Positions 5,932-31,248 of a stretch of 64,000 nucleotides of DNA are shown piece after piece. Source of the stretch: an uncultured Candidatus Pelagibacter sp. (GTDB taxonomy: Bacteria > Pseudomonadota > Alphaproteobacteria > Pelagibacterales > Pelagibacteraceae). Location of the stretch: contig CAJQSX010000002.1 in assembly GCA_905616465.1 (NCBI GenBank), positions 1 through 64,000 of the forward strand. Direction: 5' to 3'. The notes below the pieces were generated by a model. It ran no database searches. It had not been told where the DNA came from and saw only the letters and a list, made by a program, of their open reading frames with translations. Numbering within the stretch: position 1 is the first letter of the stretch; every line of letters starts with the position of its first letter. The translations under genes and the position numbers were made by a program.

Positions 5932-6050
5932 AATTCAATTTTAACATTAAATGTGGCATCAATATAAACTTATTAGTTGAATTGTGTTAATAAGCTTATG
6001 TTTTTGAGAGTATTTTCTTCAAAAGTCTAATAATATTTGAACTTAATCTT

Positions 6051-6056
6051 AGGAGG
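6051..6056 (+). promoter_or_regulatory. Shine-Dalgarno site that fixes the start of the purine permease
   Basis: AGGAGG lies four bases before the ATG at 6061. Such a perfect site is rare in this window and shows that the ATG, not the in-frame TTG at 6037, is the start; the TTG frame would run through the AGGAGG itself. Confidence 0.85.
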
Positions 6057-6060
6057 ATCA

Positions 6061-7395
6061 ATGTTAGAAAAATATTTTGACTATAAAAAACACAAGACTG
6101 ATTTCAACACAGAGGTAAGGGCTGGAGTTACGACTTTTTTAACTATGGCGTATATATTGGCATTGCAGCCAATGATAATGAGTGCAGGTGGATTTGATGG
6201 TGGTTCAATTTTTACTGCAACAGTTTTCGCTACAGCCATTGCCTGTTTTATAATGGGATTTTACGGTAAGACTTGGCCAATTGGTTTAAGTTGTGGGATG
6301 GGCTTAAATGCTTATGTAGCTTACTATGTGTGTGGAACTCTGGGACACACACCTCAAGAAGCACTTGGTGCAGTTTTAGTTGCAGGAGTAATATTTCTTG
6401 CTATTTCACTAACACCTATAAGAGCATGGATAATAAATGCGATTCCAAGAAGCTTAAAGCTTGGTATTGGAGCGGGTATTGGACTGTTTTTAGCTCTTAT
6501 TGGTTTTACTTTAATGGGACTGACTGTGTCAAATGAAGTAACCGTAGTTCAACTACAAAATGGATTTCATAAAGATCCTTTAATCATGGTTGCTTTAGCT
6601 GCCCTAATAACAATGTTTGTTTTAGACAAATTAAAAATTAAAGGTGCAATTATAATTGCATTAACTTCTTGGACTGTAATTGCTTGGATATTTATTCCAA
6701 ATGAAATACTAGATAAAAATTATTCAAATTTTGGAGGCTTTGCTGATGGTATAATAAGTATGAAGATTCCAGCAATGACTCATTTACTTGATTTTAATCT
6801 ATCAGCTATTTTTTCAGGAGCAATGATGTCTGTTATTTTCACTTTATTTTTTGTTGATTTTTTTGATACTGCCGGAACTCTTACATCAGTTGCTAATGTG
6901 GCTGGAAAAGTTGATAGAAACGGCCGTGTTGAAGATATTGATAAAGCTCTTCTTGCAGATAGTGCTGGAACTGTTGCTGGTGCACTCCTTGGTACAACAA
7001 CGGTGACCTCATATGTCGAGTCTGGCTCTGGAGTTAAAGAAGGTGGACGTACAGGAATGACTTCTATTGTGATTGGAGTATTATTTTTATCAATGATATT
7101 CTTTTCTCCTCTTTTCCTTAGCATACCGAAACAAATTGATGCTGCAGTATTAATTTTTGTTTCTATTCTTTTTTTGCAAAATCTTAAAGATATAGAATGG
7201 GAAGATATTACTGAGTCAGGACCTGCAGCTTTAGCTGCAATGACCATGGCGTACACATACAATATAAGTCATGGGATAGCGGTTGCATTTGTGGCTTACG
7301 CATTAATTAAAATCTTTACTGGAAGTATAAAAGGTGTTTCACCAGCTATTTGGATTGTTGCAGTTTTAAGTGCTATAAACTTGTATATATATTAA
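6061..7395 (+). CDS. NCS2/AzgA-type purine permease (adenine, guanine, hypoxanthine)
   Basis: A 444-residue multi-pass inner-membrane transporter of the AzgA branch of the nucleobase:cation symporter 2 family. Seen: the N-terminal block EVRAGVTTFLTMAYILALQP, the substrate block GLSCGMGLNAYVAYY near 80-95, FFVDFFDTAGTLTSVAN near 260-276, and TSYVESGSGVKEGGRTG near 318-334, all AzgA signatures. Start set by the perfect Shine-Dalgarno at 6051. The gene converges on a purine-type phosphoribosyltransferase and shares a hairpin terminator with it; together they would import a purine base and convert it to a nucleotide. The exact base cannot be told from sequence. Confidence 0.87.
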   Translation: MLEKYFDYKKHKTDFNTEVRAGVTTFLTMAYILALQPMIMSAGGFDGGSIFTATVFATAIACFIMGFYGKTWPIGLSCGMGLNAYVAYYVCGTLGHTPQEALGAVLVAGVIFLAISLTPIRAWIINAIPRSLKLGIGAGIGLFLALIGFTLMGLTVSNEVTVVQLQNGFHKDPLIMVALAALITMFVLDKLKIKGAIIIALTSWTVIAWIFIPNEILDKNYSNFGGFADGIISMKIPAMTHLLDFNLSAIFSGAMMSVIFTLFFVDFFDTAGTLTSVANVAGKVDRNGRVEDIDKALLADSAGTVAGALLGTTTVTSYVESGSGVKEGGRTGMTSIVIGVLFLSMIFFSPLFLSIPKQIDAAVLIFVSILFLQNLKDIEWEDITESGPAALAAMTMAYTYNISHGIAVAFVAYALIKIFTGSIKGVSPAIWIVAVLSAINLYIY

Positions 7396-26332: not shown

Positions 26333-26884
26333 ATGGATCTTACTAAAATAAACTCTCAATCAAAATTAATTAAATCATTTATTGTAATAATTTTAGGTTC
26401 AGTTGCACTTACGATATCTGCTAAACTAAAAATTCCTTTTTATCCCGTGCCAATGACGATGCAAACATTTGTTGTTTTGTTTTTAGGTTTAAGTTTTGGA
26501 TATAAAATGGGTTTGACAACAGTAGGTTTATATTTATTGGAGGGAATTGCTGGCTTTCCTGTTTTTTCAAATTCTCCAGAAAAAGGTATTGGCTTAGTTT
26601 ATTTTACTGGACCAACAATGGGTTATTTAGTGGGGTTTTTGGTAGCTTCTTTTTTATCTGCTTTTATAAATATGAAAGATAATTTTTTAATTATCTTTCT
26701 AAAACTTTTAATGTCAGTTTCTACTATATATATTCTTGGAATTTTATGGCTTGGAACCCTAATTGGTTGGGATAAACCAATCTTTAGTTTAGGTGTTACT
26801 CCATTTTTATTAGCTGAATTTTTTAAGTTAGCTCTTTTAACGTTATTAGCAAAAAAAATTATTAAATTTAGAGATTTTATCTAG
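26333..26884 (+). CDS. bioY: Biotin transporter BioY (ECF S-component)
   Basis: 183 residues with six membrane helices and the BioY signatures: LKIPFYPVPMTMQTFVVLF at 32-50 and GLYLLEGIAGFPVF at 66-79, followed by GPTMGYLVGFLVASF. It takes up biotin, alone or with an ECF energy module; no such module genes lie nearby. The 124-base region before it, shared with the divergent polA, is very AT-rich; a sequence at 26250-26259 differs by one base from the BioR operator, but I do not call it. The last eight bases overlap the regA-like gene. Confidence 0.9.
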   Translation: MDLTKINSQSKLIKSFIVIILGSVALTISAKLKIPFYPVPMTMQTFVVLFLGLSFGYKMGLTTVGLYLLEGIAGFPVFSNSPEKGIGLVYFTGPTMGYLVGFLVASFLSAFINMKDNFLIIFLKLLMSVSTIYILGILWLGTLIGWDKPIFSLGVTPFLLAEFFKLALLTLLAKKIIKFRDFI

Positions 26885-27449
26885 GGGATCTTTTAGATAA
26901 TATTCTTTGAAGAGTTCTTCTATGCATCTTAAGTCTTCTTGCAGTTTCAGATACATTTCTATTACATAATTCAAAAACTCTATGAATATGTTCCCACTTT
27001 ACACGGTCGGCTGACATTGGGTTTTCTGGCGGAGCAGCTTTTTTTGATGGGTCTGCCAACAATGCTTTTTCAACATCATCTGCATCTGCCGGCTTTGCAA
27101 GGTAATCAATTGCACCTTCTTTAATTGCGGCAACGGCAGTCGGTATGTTCCCATATCCAGTTAACATAATAATTCTACTTGAGGAATTTGAGCTTTGAAT
27201 TTCTTTAACAACCTCCAAGCCATTTCCATCTGCTAGCCTTAAGTCAACTACTGCAAAACCCGGTTTTTTAACTTTTACAGCTTCTATTCCTTTTTTTACA
27301 CTTTCAGCTTGTAAAACTTCAAAACCCTTCTTTTCCATTGCCCTTGATAACCTATCTCTAAAGGGATTGTCATCATCTACGATTAACAAGGATTTATTAT
27401 CAAAATTAGATAATTTTTGAAGTGTTGCTTCATTTTTCATTAAGTACAT
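26877..27449 (-). CDS. regA: RegA/PrrA/ActR-type redox response regulator
   Basis: 190 residues. Receiver domain with acidic residues at 25-27, Asp69 in AVVDLRLADGNG and LTGYGNIPTAVAAIKEGAIDY. After a proline-containing linker (AAPPENP) comes a Fis-type helix-turn-helix with NVSETARRLKMHRRTLQRIL, almost identical to RegA/PrrA/ActR of other alphaproteobacteria, which control redox-dependent energy metabolism. Its partner kinase RegB is not adjacent. A second ATG at 27440 is an alternative start. It is divergent from the polyamine operon across 142 bases. Confidence 0.92.
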   Translation of the reverse strand: MYLMKNEATLQKLSNFDNKSLLIVDDDNPFRDRLSRAMEKKGFEVLQAESVKKGIEAVKVKKPGFAVVDLRLADGNGLEVVKEIQSSNSSSRIIMLTGYGNIPTAVAAIKEGAIDYLAKPADADDVEKALLADPSKKAAPPENPMSADRVKWEHIHRVFELCNRNVSETARRLKMHRRTLQRILSKRSPR

Positions 27450-27528: not shown

Positions 27529-27563
27529 AAAAAGTTTTTATATGTTTTTAAAACTTTTTTTTT
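27529..27563 (+). other. AT-rich hairpin plus T-run in the leader of the polyamine operon
   Basis: Ten-base perfect arms (27529-27538 and 27550-27559) with a single G-C pair enclose an 11-base loop. T bases continue to 27563 before GTTAAATTT and the ribosome site. The shape is like a weak terminator or attenuator just before the decarboxylase gene. Base composition alone makes such repeats likely in AT-rich DNA, so function is uncertain. Confidence 0.35.
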
Positions 27564-27591: not shown

Positions 27592-28776
27592 ATGCAAAAA
27601 TTTAAATCAGTTGAAGATTTAATAAATCAACTGAAACCTGAAAAGCCTATTTATTGTATCAGAAGACATTCTGTTACTTCTGCTTCAAAATTTTTTCAGA
27701 AAAATTTTCCTGGGGATGTTTTATATGCAGTTAAAACTAATCCTCACCCTATAGTAATAAAAACGCTTTTAGAAAGTGGCATTAATCAATTCGATGTAGC
27801 TTCAATTGAAGAAATCAAACAAATAAGGAAATTTACAAGTACTGCAAAATGTTCTTACATGCATACTATTAAAAGTCCTGAAAGTATTAATAGAGCTTAT
27901 TTTGAATATGGAATTAAAACTTTTTCTTTAGATACAAAAGAAGAGTTAATAAAAATTATAAAAAATACGAATAATGCTAAAGATCTAGAATTATTTATAA
28001 GAATTGCTGTTTCAAATGAGCATGCTGAAATCGATTTATCAAAAAAATTTGGTGCTCTAAATTCAGAAGCCTTAGGTTTGTTAAGATTGGCAAAACAATA
28101 TGCCTTTAAAGTTGGATTAAGTTTTCATGTCGGGTCTCAGTGCATGCATCCTATTTCTTATGCTAAAGGGATATCAGAAGTTGGAAAAATAATTAAAAAA
28201 ACGAAAATTATTCCTGATTATATAAATGTTGGAGGGGGTTTTCCAGCAATCTATCCTGATTTAATACCTCATAATTTGATTGCATACTTTAATGAAATCC
28301 AAAAAAGTCTAAAAAATTTAAAACTAGAAAAAATGCCTAAAATAATTTGTGAACCTGGAAGAGCTTTAGTTGCCGAAAGTGGCTCAACTATAGTTAAGGT
28401 TAATTTAAGAAAAAAACAAAAATTATATATAAATGATGGAACATATGGAACTTTATTTGATGCTGGGACACCCAACATTGTTTTTCCAACTAAAATGATT
28501 AAAGAAACCTCAAATAAGATTATATCAAAAAAGATGACTGCATTTGATTTTTTTGGACCGACTTGTGACAGTATGGATTATATGAAGGGTCCATTTATTC
28601 TTCCAAATAATATTAAAGAAAATGACTATATTGAATTAGGACAACTAGGTGCCTACGGACTAACTTTTAGAACACAATTTAATGGGTTTTATTCTGATGA
28701 AATATATGAAGTTGATGATGCTCCAATTATGAGCCTGTACAATAAAAACATTCCTAAAGCTACTTTGGTCGCTTAA
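27592..28776 (+). CDS. PLP-dependent fold III decarboxylase (ornithine/lysine decarboxylase type)
   Basis: 394 residues of the alanine-racemase-fold decarboxylase group that includes eukaryotic-type ornithine decarboxylase. Seen: DVLYAVKTNPHP with PLP-binding Lys48, HVGSQCMHP, INVGGGFPA, CEPGRALVAESG, and FGPTCDSMDYM with active-site Cys325-Asp326. It should make putrescine (or cadaverine) from ornithine (or lysine). Alphaproteobacterial members can accept both. It overlaps the deoxyhypusine-synthase-like gene by one base (TAATG) and so leads a three-gene polyamine operon. Carboxynorspermidine decarboxylase is less likely, given the CDSMD motif and context. Confidence 0.86.
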   Translation: MQKFKSVEDLINQLKPEKPIYCIRRHSVTSASKFFQKNFPGDVLYAVKTNPHPIVIKTLLESGINQFDVASIEEIKQIRKFTSTAKCSYMHTIKSPESINRAYFEYGIKTFSLDTKEELIKIIKNTNNAKDLELFIRIAVSNEHAEIDLSKKFGALNSEALGLLRLAKQYAFKVGLSFHVGSQCMHPISYAKGISEVGKIIKKTKIIPDYINVGGGFPAIYPDLIPHNLIAYFNEIQKSLKNLKLEKMPKIICEPGRALVAESGSTIVKVNLRKKQKLYINDGTYGTLFDAGTPNIVFPTKMIKETSNKIISKKMTAFDFFGPTCDSMDYMKGPFILPNNIKENDYIELGQLGAYGLTFRTQFNGFYSDEIYEVDDAPIMSLYNKNIPKATLVA

Positions 28777-29819
28777 TGTCAAAAGATAAAAGCTTAGTTC
28801 ACAATAGTAAAAAAGATTTTTTAAAAAATCCTGTAGAACATATTGATATTACTTCCTTTGACTCTAGAAAAATAATTTCTTCAATGGAAAAAATGTCTTT
28901 TGTTGCAAGAGAAACTGCTAATGCTGCAAATATATATAACGACATGCTAAAAGATAAAGACTGTACCATTTTTTTAACGTTAGCTGGATCCACATCTGCG
29001 GGTGGATGTATGAATGTTTATAAAGATCTAGTTAAATACAATATGGTGGATGCAATTATTGCAACAGGAGCTTCTATTGTAGATATGGATTTCTTTGAAG
29101 CTCTAGGATTTAAACATTATCAAGGATCACAATTTCAAGATGATACTGAATTAAGAAATAATTATATAGATAGAATATACGACACCTATATCGATGAAGA
29201 AGAGCTCCAAACGTGTGATAAAATTATTTGCGAAATAGCAGATACTTTAGAGGCAAGAAGCTACACTTCTAGAGAATTCATTAATGAAATGGGCAAATAT
29301 TTAAAAAAAAATTCCAAAAAGAAAGATTCTTTAATTGAAACTGCTTACGATAATAATGTGCCTATTTTTTGTCCAGCTTTTACAGATTCAAGTGCAGGAT
29401 TTGGTCTGGTAATACATCAAGAAAAAAATCCTAAACATCATATAACCATAGATTCTATCAGAGAATTTAGAGAGCTTACTGAAATTAAAATTCAATCTAA
29501 TGGATCAGGACTATTTATGATTGGTGGTGGTGTTCCAAAAAATTTTATTCAAGATACCATTATATGTGCAGAACTTTTAGGCAAAGAAGTGGGCATGCAC
29601 AAGTATGCAATACAAATAACCGTTGCGGACAGCAGAGATGGAGCGTGTAGTAGTTCAACCTTAAAAGAAGCAAGCTCTTGGGGTAAAGTTGATATAGCTA
29701 AAGAGCAAATGGTATATGCAGAAGCAACAAGTGTATTGCCATTAATAGCTAGCGATGCTTATCATAAAGGTGAGTGGAAAAGTAGAAATAGAAAAAACTT
29801 TACTAAAATTTTTAAATAA
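28776..29819 (+). CDS. Deoxyhypusine synthase-like protein (probable homospermidine-type synthase)
   Basis: 347 residues. Seen: TLAGSTSAGGCMNVYKDLV and AIIATGASIVDMDFFEALG (NAD-binding part), FCPAFTDSSAGFGL, MIGGGVPKNFIQDT, and EASSWGKVD with Lys304, matching the lysine that carries the aminobutyl group in deoxyhypusine synthase. Bacteria lack eIF5A, the substrate of the eukaryotic enzyme, so this homologue most likely transfers an aminobutyl group between free amines, as in homospermidine formation. It stands between a diamine-forming decarboxylase and a ureohydrolase, which may mean that a guanidino compound such as agmatine is a substrate. The start overlaps the upstream stop. Confidence 0.85.
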   Translation: MSKDKSLVHNSKKDFLKNPVEHIDITSFDSRKIISSMEKMSFVARETANAANIYNDMLKDKDCTIFLTLAGSTSAGGCMNVYKDLVKYNMVDAIIATGASIVDMDFFEALGFKHYQGSQFQDDTELRNNYIDRIYDTYIDEEELQTCDKIICEIADTLEARSYTSREFINEMGKYLKKNSKKKDSLIETAYDNNVPIFCPAFTDSSAGFGLVIHQEKNPKHHITIDSIREFRELTEIKIQSNGSGLFMIGGGVPKNFIQDTIICAELLGKEVGMHKYAIQITVADSRDGACSSSTLKEASSWGKVDIAKEQMVYAEATSVLPLIASDAYHKGEWKSRNRKNFTKIFK

Positions 29820-29821
29820 AA

Positions 29822-30697
29822 TTGAAATATCTCTCTAATAAAAATGGATTTTTAGGAATTGACAATAAGGTTAATTTTAAAGAAAAAGTAGTTGTGGTTC
29901 CTTTCGGTCTAGAAAAAACTGTCAGCTACGGTGGTGGCACTAAAAATGGACCTAGGGAGATCATCAAAGCATCACATCAGGTAGAGCTTTACGACGAAGA
30001 GTTAAACTGTGAACCTTACAAAAAAATAGGTATTAAAACTTTAAAACCATTTAAAATTAACAAAGATATCAAAAAAGCTCTAAATAAAATGTCTAAGATA
30101 AACGAAGAAATTTTGGACAAAAAACTTTTTCCAATGACTTTTGGTGGTGAACACTCAATAACTCCCGGATGCATTGATCCATTTACAAAAAAATACGAAA
30201 AGATTTGTCTTTTACACTTTGATGCTCATGCAGACTTACGTGAAAGTTATAATGGAGAAAAATTTTCACATGCTTCGGCTATTAAAAGATGCTTAGATTA
30301 TCCAAATGTTTCTGTAATTTCATTTGGGATAAGAAATATTTCTCAAAGCGAAATTCCTTTCCTAAAAAAAAATTCCTCAAGAATTAATATATTTTGGGCA
30401 AAAGATAAAAATAAATGGGACCTTAATAAATTTAAGAAATTAATAAAAGATAAAACTGTTTATCTAACATTTGATGTTGATGGACTAGATTCAAGCATTA
30501 TGCCCGCTACAGGAACACCTGAACCCGGTGGATTATTATGGGATGAAACTCTAAATATCATAAAAATTGCAGCAAAAAATTCAAAAATAGTTGGTGCAGA
30601 TATTAACGAACTTTCACCTATAAAAGGTTTTAATTCATACAATTTTCTTGTGGCTAAGTTAGCCTATAAAATTTTATCTTATAAATTTTTATGTTAA
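29822..30697 (+). CDS. Agmatinase/arginase-family ureohydrolase
   Basis: 291 residues of the Mn-dependent ureohydrolase family. All metal ligands are present: His111 in FGGEH, Asp134, His136 and Asp138 in FDAHAD, and Asp218 and Asp220 in FDVDGLD, followed by PATGTPEPGG, which favours agmatinase-type enzymes. The start codon is TTG at 29822, two bases after the upstream stop; no ATG occurs until residue 90, and the conserved SYGGGTKNGP at 35-44 needs the early start. It hydrolyses a guanidino compound to an amine plus urea; in this operon the substrate could be agmatine or a guanidino polyamine made by the preceding enzyme. Confidence 0.86.
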   Translation: MKYLSNKNGFLGIDNKVNFKEKVVVVPFGLEKTVSYGGGTKNGPREIIKASHQVELYDEELNCEPYKKIGIKTLKPFKINKDIKKALNKMSKINEEILDKKLFPMTFGGEHSITPGCIDPFTKKYEKICLLHFDAHADLRESYNGEKFSHASAIKRCLDYPNVSVISFGIRNISQSEIPFLKKNSSRINIFWAKDKNKWDLNKFKKLIKDKTVYLTFDVDGLDSSIMPATGTPEPGGLLWDETLNIIKIAAKNSKIVGADINELSPIKGFNSYNFLVAKLAYKILSYKFLC

Positions 30698-31248
30698 ACT
30701 TTAGCAGCTTTAAGGGTGCCTAGTAATAATCTGAAAGGTATTAACATTATCAAGGCTACAAATATCTTAACTGCTAAGTCACCTAAAGATAATGTAAACC
30801 ATGGTATTCCTGTTGCATAAAACGATATTGAAAAGAATAAAAAAGTGTCAACAGTAGAACCAATAAATGAAGAAGTAAGAGGTGCAATAAACCATTTCTT
30901 TTTTCTTAGTTTAGCAAAAATTTGAACATCTAATAATTGAGCTATTATAAAAGCAGTACCAGATCCAATTGCAATTCTCACTGAAATTAAATCTGCAAAA
31001 TTAGTTGAAAATAAAAGAGTAAAACTAATACCTGTGGCAAATCCAATATAAACAATTTTTCTAGCAACCACCTTGCCATAGGATCTGTTTGCTAAATCGG
31101 TAATTAAGAATGCAATTGGATAACTAAAAGCGCCATAAGTTAGTATTTTTTCTAACCCATAATATTTAATTGGGAACTGAACTAAAAAATTTGAAGATAA
31201 AACAACCACTCCCATTAGAAATGAGAGAAGTAAAAACAGCCTATTCAT
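30694..31248 (-). CDS. Queuosine precursor transporter (YhhQ/VUT family)
   Basis: 184 residues with about six membrane helices. Seen: GAFSYPIAFLITDLANRSYGK at 39-59, where the PxxFLxTDxxNxxYG pattern is the family signature, then SGTAFIIAQLLDVQIFAKLRKK, and SSFIGSTVDTFLFFSISF. The E. coli member YhhQ imports the queuosine precursor preQ0. The gene overlaps the stop of rpmB by one base and ends the lysS-pyrD-rpmB run. Confidence 0.85.
   Translation of the reverse strand: MNRLFLLLSFLMGVVVLSSNFLVQFPIKYYGLEKILTYGAFSYPIAFLITDLANRSYGKVVARKIVYIGFATGISFTLLFSTNFADLISVRIAIGSGTAFIIAQLLDVQIFAKLRKKKWFIAPLTSSFIGSTVDTFLFFSISFYATGIPWFTLSLGDLAVKIFVALIMLIPFRLLLGTLKAAKV

Follow-up and report, generated by a model that had tools for sequence, protein, structure and literature searches.

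A Candidatus Pelagibacter gene cluster that may lead from arginine to homospermidine through caldomycin

Three adjacent genes of an uncultured Candidatus Pelagibacter sp., coding for a decarboxylase, a homolog of deoxyhypusine synthase (DHS), and a ureohydrolase, are proposed here with moderate confidence to form a pathway from arginine to homospermidine that proceeds through agmatine coupling and urea removal. The decarboxylase would convert arginine to agmatine. The DHS homolog would then join two agmatines to the bis-guanidino compound caldomycin by moving a guanidinobutyl group, and the ureohydrolase would cleave caldomycin to homospermidine and two ureas, with N1-aminobutylagmatine as a later intermediate. 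In a side branch, some agmatine may be cleaved by the ureohydrolase to putrescine, the substrate of a SpeD-SpeE fusion whose gene lies elsewhere in the genome. The substrates of all three enzymes are predicted here from the families to which the proteins belong, their residues, the order of the genes, and phylogeny. Work by others has shown arginine decarboxylase (ADC) activity for two SAR11 homologs and, in Thermus, both the coupling of agmatine and the action of the ureohydrolase. In Thermus thermophilus, CdmS joins two agmatines to caldomycin while the levels of putrescine and spermidine stay unchanged, and homospermidine arises from caldomycin through TtSpeBap, N1-aminobutylagmatine being a minor intermediate (PMC10981699).

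The initial annotation had suggested that the DHS homolog may join an aminobutyl group to agmatine and that the ureohydrolase then releases urea to yield a triamine. A guanidino substrate of the DHS homolog is indeed probable, but agmatine itself would be the donor and a guanidinobutyl group would be moved; the donor is read as agmatine because CdmS, the nearest characterized relative, couples agmatine. Urea release toward a triamine is likewise probable, but, by analogy with the CdmS system, its substrate would be bis-guanidino and aminobutylagmatine would appear only later. Several elements of this picture are already published, namely the ADC activity and the gene cluster of Pelagibacter (2023, PMC9992855), the chemistry (2024, PMC10981699), and the family name. 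The titles and abstract openings of the open-licence papers matched in literature searches contained no report of caldomycin in SAR11 or of module exchange within a genus. If the proposal is true, caldomycin, reported from one heat-loving bacterium, would also be formed as an intermediate by cells that rank among the most abundant in the ocean. It would then be wrong to call this alphaproteobacterial enzyme group "homospermidine synthase from putrescine," and presumed ornithine decarboxylase (ODC) genes beside such a DHS would code for ADCs.

Organization of the gene cluster

The window, that is, the whole stretch of 64,000 nucleotides analyzed, is part of contig C2 of a draft genome (797,566 bases, 44 contigs, 67% complete). 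ORF and Pfam results agree with the earlier description of a decarboxylase, a DHS homolog, and a ureohydrolase tightly packed on the plus strand at 27592-30697. The first gene (27592-28776) codes for a PLP decarboxylase with the alanine-racemase fold (Pfam Orn_Arg_deC_N/Orn_DAP_Arg_deC), an ODC homolog and predicted ADC of 394 amino acids counted from its ATG; an in-frame TTG is also present at 27562. It overlaps by 1 base with the DHS gene (28776-29819; 347 amino acids; Pfam DS, 329 bits), which is followed after a gap of 2 bases by the gene for a SpeB-type ureohydrolase (29822-30697; 291 amino acids from a TTG start; Pfam Arginase, 200 bits). Upstream, the border is formed by a response-regulator-like gene on the minus strand (26877-27449), named by eye, which precedes both versions of the operon, the one with SpeB (L002) and the one with the alternative module described below (L016 and L021). 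Downstream, the ORF list and the locus comparison place the border of the exchanged module at a membrane-protein-like gene on the minus strand (30694-31248), here called VUT. No RNA element was found in the window (Rfam, gathering threshold). Decarboxylase, DHS, and ureohydrolase genes are adjacent in nine of the 15 genomes of the class sample that have the same DHS type, including the genome of the window, and their order is thus not attributable to chance. Elsewhere in this genome (G000:C5:39230-40015), a second arginase-family gene has 29% identity to the operon SpeB and scores over the agmatinase cut-off.

Family membership and pocket residues of the DHS homolog

In comparisons with NCBIfam, the DHS homolog reached 578.7 bits to the caldomycin synthase family NF002699 (cut-off 500) and stayed under the cut-offs of all six other families matched. 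These are the homospermidine biosynthesis family NF001980 (191.2 bits, cut-off 450) and the deoxyhypusine synthase models NF002006 (308/434), NF002630 (242/364), TIGR00321 (233/304), NF002294 (166/350), and NF003052 (153/380; bits/cut-off). The lysine at position 304 noted in the initial annotation was found within an SWGK motif (codon 29685-29687) and is equivalent to the catalytic K299 of CdmS and K329 of human DHS. In total, six of the seven pocket residues named for CdmS are identical in the window DHS, with an offset of +5 at all seven positions: S72, E141, D148, F209 (codon 29400-29402), E298, and K304 correspond to S67, E136, D143, F204 (D243 in human DHS), E293, and K299, and C291 takes the place of L286. 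The seven residues were derived by docking agmatine into a modeled structure, not from mutants (PMC10981699), and the alignment used here comprised 167 rows, with Thermus CdmS and a proven putrescine-using SpeY outside it. At the position of L286, 156 of the 167 rows have C and six have L. The archaeal DHS of this alignment also carry L, and this position is therefore not diagnostic. The residues at S67, E136, D143, and F204, by comparison, all differ in five eukaryotic and archaeal DHS, which are the human enzyme (N, N, E, D), 7cmc and 8put (both archaeal), and two proteins from haloarchaeal plasmids.

The system resembles that of T. thermophilus (PMC10981699) in its NCBIfam product name, in six of the seven named residues, and in the ureohydrolase partner. 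It differs in that the host is no thermophile, C replaces L286, the genes form a compact operon whose first gene codes for an ODC-fold decarboxylase, and the substrates are predicted. A divergent DHS was observed in one further genome (G258, L045, 1504-3323), where it adjoins an agmatinase that scores over its cut-off. This DHS has 24% identity, lies under all NCBIfam cut-offs, and carries A, E, E, and N where CdmS has S67, E136, D143, and F204; a plasmid search with it gave no match.

Arginine as the predicted substrate of the decarboxylase

In Ca. Pelagibacter ubique as in Ca. Fonsibacter ubiquis, the "ODC" protein acts as an arginine decarboxylase, and its activity toward ornithine and lysine is undetectable (PMC9992855). 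The decarboxylase of the window, whose substrate had been left open in the initial annotation, is probably of the same arginine decarboxylase kind. It has 82% identity to a homolog of the same genus and 60% to one of the same family. In a tree of 88 rows calculated by a quick method, it groups with every one of the 14 tested rows from genomes of the same DHS type in a clade of 21 rows (SH-aLRT 97), apart from 20 presumed canonical alphaproteobacterial ODCs, which group by themselves (support 100). The clade contains 14 of the 15 class genomes with this DHS type; in the fifteenth, G069, the decarboxylase match is no more than weak and lies outside the tree. Eight rows were omitted, which are L228 (a duplicate of the window sequence), L253, L254, L255, L268, L291 (internal stops), L296, and L287 (odd aligned region); among them, only the duplicate stems from a genome of the same DHS type. 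The name canonical ODC refers to one checked protein, whose best matches among solved structures are lysine/ornithine decarboxylases (224 bits, as compared with 123 bits for the window protein), and to the tree for the other rows; the two proteins tested against NCBIfam passed no model. By extension, we infer that the whole clade would consist of ADCs.

The acid at the position of D332 in ODC was rejected as a marker, because it fails to set the DHS-linked decarboxylases apart from the remainder of their wider subfamily, where an acid is mostly missing too. The division into ADC and ODC was based on the tree instead. Among the 20 presumed canonical ODCs, this position is occupied by D (14), G (5), or S (1), and the next residue is E in all but one, in which M-aligned residues follow. 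Agmatine deiminase or agmatinase was detected in 30 of the 32 genomes represented in the 21-row clade and its 11-row sister versus 99 of 209 others, and in 7 of 17 genomes whose sole retrieved decarboxylase was a canonical ODC; in these counts the agmatinase cut-off is approximated by an E-value (approximately 84-85 genomes), and related genomes are not independent, which makes the P values rough. The initial annotation had named speA as a gene to look for in the whole genome, and no canonical speA scored over its cut-off in any of 37 genomes (the window's own, 22 of the genus, and 14 of another family of the order). Weak matches occurred in 32 of them, some being the operon decarboxylase itself, and the strongest, in G012, represents a diaminopimelate decarboxylase (445 bits against a cut-off of 298).

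In-place exchange of the ureohydrolase

The ureohydrolase scored 206.8 bits to the agmatinase model TIGR01230 (cut-off 174.3), and it did not reach the cut-off of the narrower model NF002564 (119 versus 302). All six ligand residues noted in the initial annotation are present in the motifs GGEHS, HFDAHAD, and TFDVDG, which were aligned with three structures; in the arginase family, these residues are the metal ligands.

The survey covered 61 genomes, many of them incomplete: the window's own, 36 of the same genus, and 24 of another family of the order. Of the 37 genus genomes, 30 showed a DHS of the NF002699 kind (28 over the cut-off); in the 24 of the other family none was detected. Eighteen of the 37 carry a close ortholog of the ureohydrolase (85-100% identity, one being a fragment) and 15 others carry an agmatine deiminase; the two were never seen together, and four genomes had neither. 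Remoter arginase-family genes (27-33%) are present in many genus genomes of both module kinds. In the window's genome, 67% complete, SpeB is present and AIH was not seen. A comparison of 32 module loci of the genus, 18 with the ureohydrolase and 14 with the deiminase (out of 15 such genomes), together with three operon loci, revealed the same downstream gene next to all 32 modules, followed by rpmB and pyrD homologs. A carbon-nitrogen hydrolase gene lies between DHS and deiminase in all 13 deiminase loci that extend far enough. The alternative module matches the AIH and NCPAH genes that accompany the ODC/ADC gene of Ca. Fonsibacter ubiquis (PMC9992855); the window has SpeB in their place.

On a tree of ADC and DHS combined (29 rows), five module changes are needed at best, and at least three are forced by supported branches. 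The ADC tree alone has six (at least two) and the DHS tree alone, built without seven segregating columns, has three (at least one). In L016 and L021 the operon is a mosaic, of the SpeB type through the ADC gene and the start of the DHS gene and of the AIH type after approximately 0.2-0.3 kb of the latter, a pattern that speaks for homologous recombination within this gene. Judged from these loci and trees, the ureohydrolase of the genus is swapped in place for an amidohydrolase/deiminase pair, more than once and partly by recombination within the DHS gene. Positions 80, 83, 152, and 217 of the DHS segregate with the module in the 29 rows, which had suggested that DHS and module are strictly co-adapted. 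L026 and L011 are exceptions, however, and together with the mosaic loci they make linkage by recombination the simpler reading.

The swap of the last step in place would amount to a natural experiment on the order of the pathway. The DHS of a genome with the deiminase (L022) also scores over the caldomycin synthase cut-off (576 bits). One SAR11 deiminase tested, with its first residues missing, reached 239 bits against the agmatine deiminase cut-off of 382, and one amidohydrolase reached 303 bits against 410 for N-carbamoylputrescine amidase. As these scores lie under the NCBIfam cut-offs, a shifted substrate of both enzymes is possible. A broader version of the proposal would have the caldomycin route ocean-wide in SAR11. 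In nearly half of the genus, a diverged pair of agmatine deiminase and carbamoylputrescine amidohydrolase would then take over from the ureohydrolase and open the bis-guanidino intermediate, which would be another, novel path to homospermidine, and the pair would be swapped repeatedly by recombination able to carry most of the synthase gene. This version is tentative and, taken as a whole, rather doubtful.

Other polyamine genes and alternative pathways

As stated in the initial annotation, neither speD nor speE lies near the operon, but a speD domain is encoded elsewhere in the genome (G000:C23), and its counterpart in G012 is a SpeD-SpeE fusion. In SAR11, SpeE is described as fused with SpeD (PMC8437039). 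The speD domain is present in 31 of the 37 genus genomes, and the operon would therefore add to spermidine synthesis without replacing it. Native polyamines reported in PMC8437039 are spermidine and homospermidine in strain HTCC1062, which counts for the caldomycin pathway, and spermidine alone in HTCC7211, which counts against it. So does the verdict of the same authors that dys2 is not primarily a homospermidine synthase. In the compound table of that paper, agmatine is the sole guanidino polyamine.

The published route for such clusters is described in the text and a figure legend of PMC9992855 and leads from arginine to agmatine by ADC, to putrescine by SpeB or by AIH and NCPAH, and then to homospermidine by a SpeY-type DHS. 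The Ca. Pelagibacter ubique cluster treated there (ODC/ADC, DHS/SpeY, and arginase/agmatinase) has the same kinds of genes and an assayed ADC also of 394 amino acids; the difference lies in its route through putrescine, and the label of its DHS as homospermidine synthase, a SpeY using putrescine, counts against the caldomycin pathway. The observed exchange favors the route through putrescine as well, because SpeB and the AIH/NCPAH pair both yield putrescine from agmatine, and a swap at one site is easiest if putrescine is all that either has to make. Replacement of SpeB by the deiminase and amidohydrolase in 15 of the 37 genomes accordingly fits a putrescine-using DHS at least as well. The SpeD-SpeE fusion, too, needs putrescine. 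However, the window DHS lies under the NF001980 cut-off and over that for caldomycin synthase, it has the pocket residues of the CdmS type, and CdmS itself left putrescine unused (PMC10981699). On balance, synthesis from putrescine is a serious but unlikely reading of the operon. A mixed route, with an aminobutyl group from putrescine or spermidine joined to agmatine and one urea then removed, as suggested in the initial annotation, could draw on the minor N1-aminobutylagmatine seen with Thermus CdmS and the ureohydrolase (PMC10981699). Yet agmatine was the substrate supplied, and this compound therefore reflects partial removal of guanidino groups from caldomycin; moreover, Thermus CdmS left putrescine and spermidine unchanged (PMC10981699), which makes the mixed route quite improbable.

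Finally, the operon might break down imported agmatine and other polyamines and have no part in synthesis. Agmatine is one of five polyamines that SAR11 takes up, and dys2 was originally proposed to act in spermidine breakdown (PMC8437039), but an operon headed by an arginine decarboxylase speaks for synthesis, and a purely catabolic role is the least probable of these alternatives, to be regarded as very unlikely. The coupling of two agmatines to caldomycin is retained as the preferred reading. A cluster in Marinimicrobia (PMC10407285) also combines genes for an ADC, an agmatinase (speB), and a DHS homolog (speY), but the ADC there is pyruvoyl-dependent and derived from SpeD.

Distribution outside the genus

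DHS genes were detected in 16 of 241 genomes of the class Alphaproteobacteria, 15 of which remain after exclusion of G258 with its other DHS type. In a scan of contigs, the best 80 of 563 relatives came mostly from Caulobacter, Brevundimonas, Phenylobacterium, or the family or order of these genera; Thermus was absent from the 80. Two cyanobacterial plasmids (L199 and L200, both at 5998-7041) carry a DHS homolog of 56-57% identity that adjoins rocD, with iron-transport genes nearby. The homolog of L199 scores over the caldomycin synthase cut-off, and its neighbor is rocD and not a gene of agmatine metabolism, which counts against the caldomycin pathway. In G069 (L037, 1438-3672), a DHS of the same type as in the window is followed by a saccharopine-dehydrogenase-type gene, possibly for a carboxynorspermidine dehydrogenase, and no ADC-type decarboxylase lies within this locus. 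A search at the phylum level also yielded weak DHS-domain matches in 22 genomes that all belong to one family (f162), with reading frames of approximately 260-355 amino acids.
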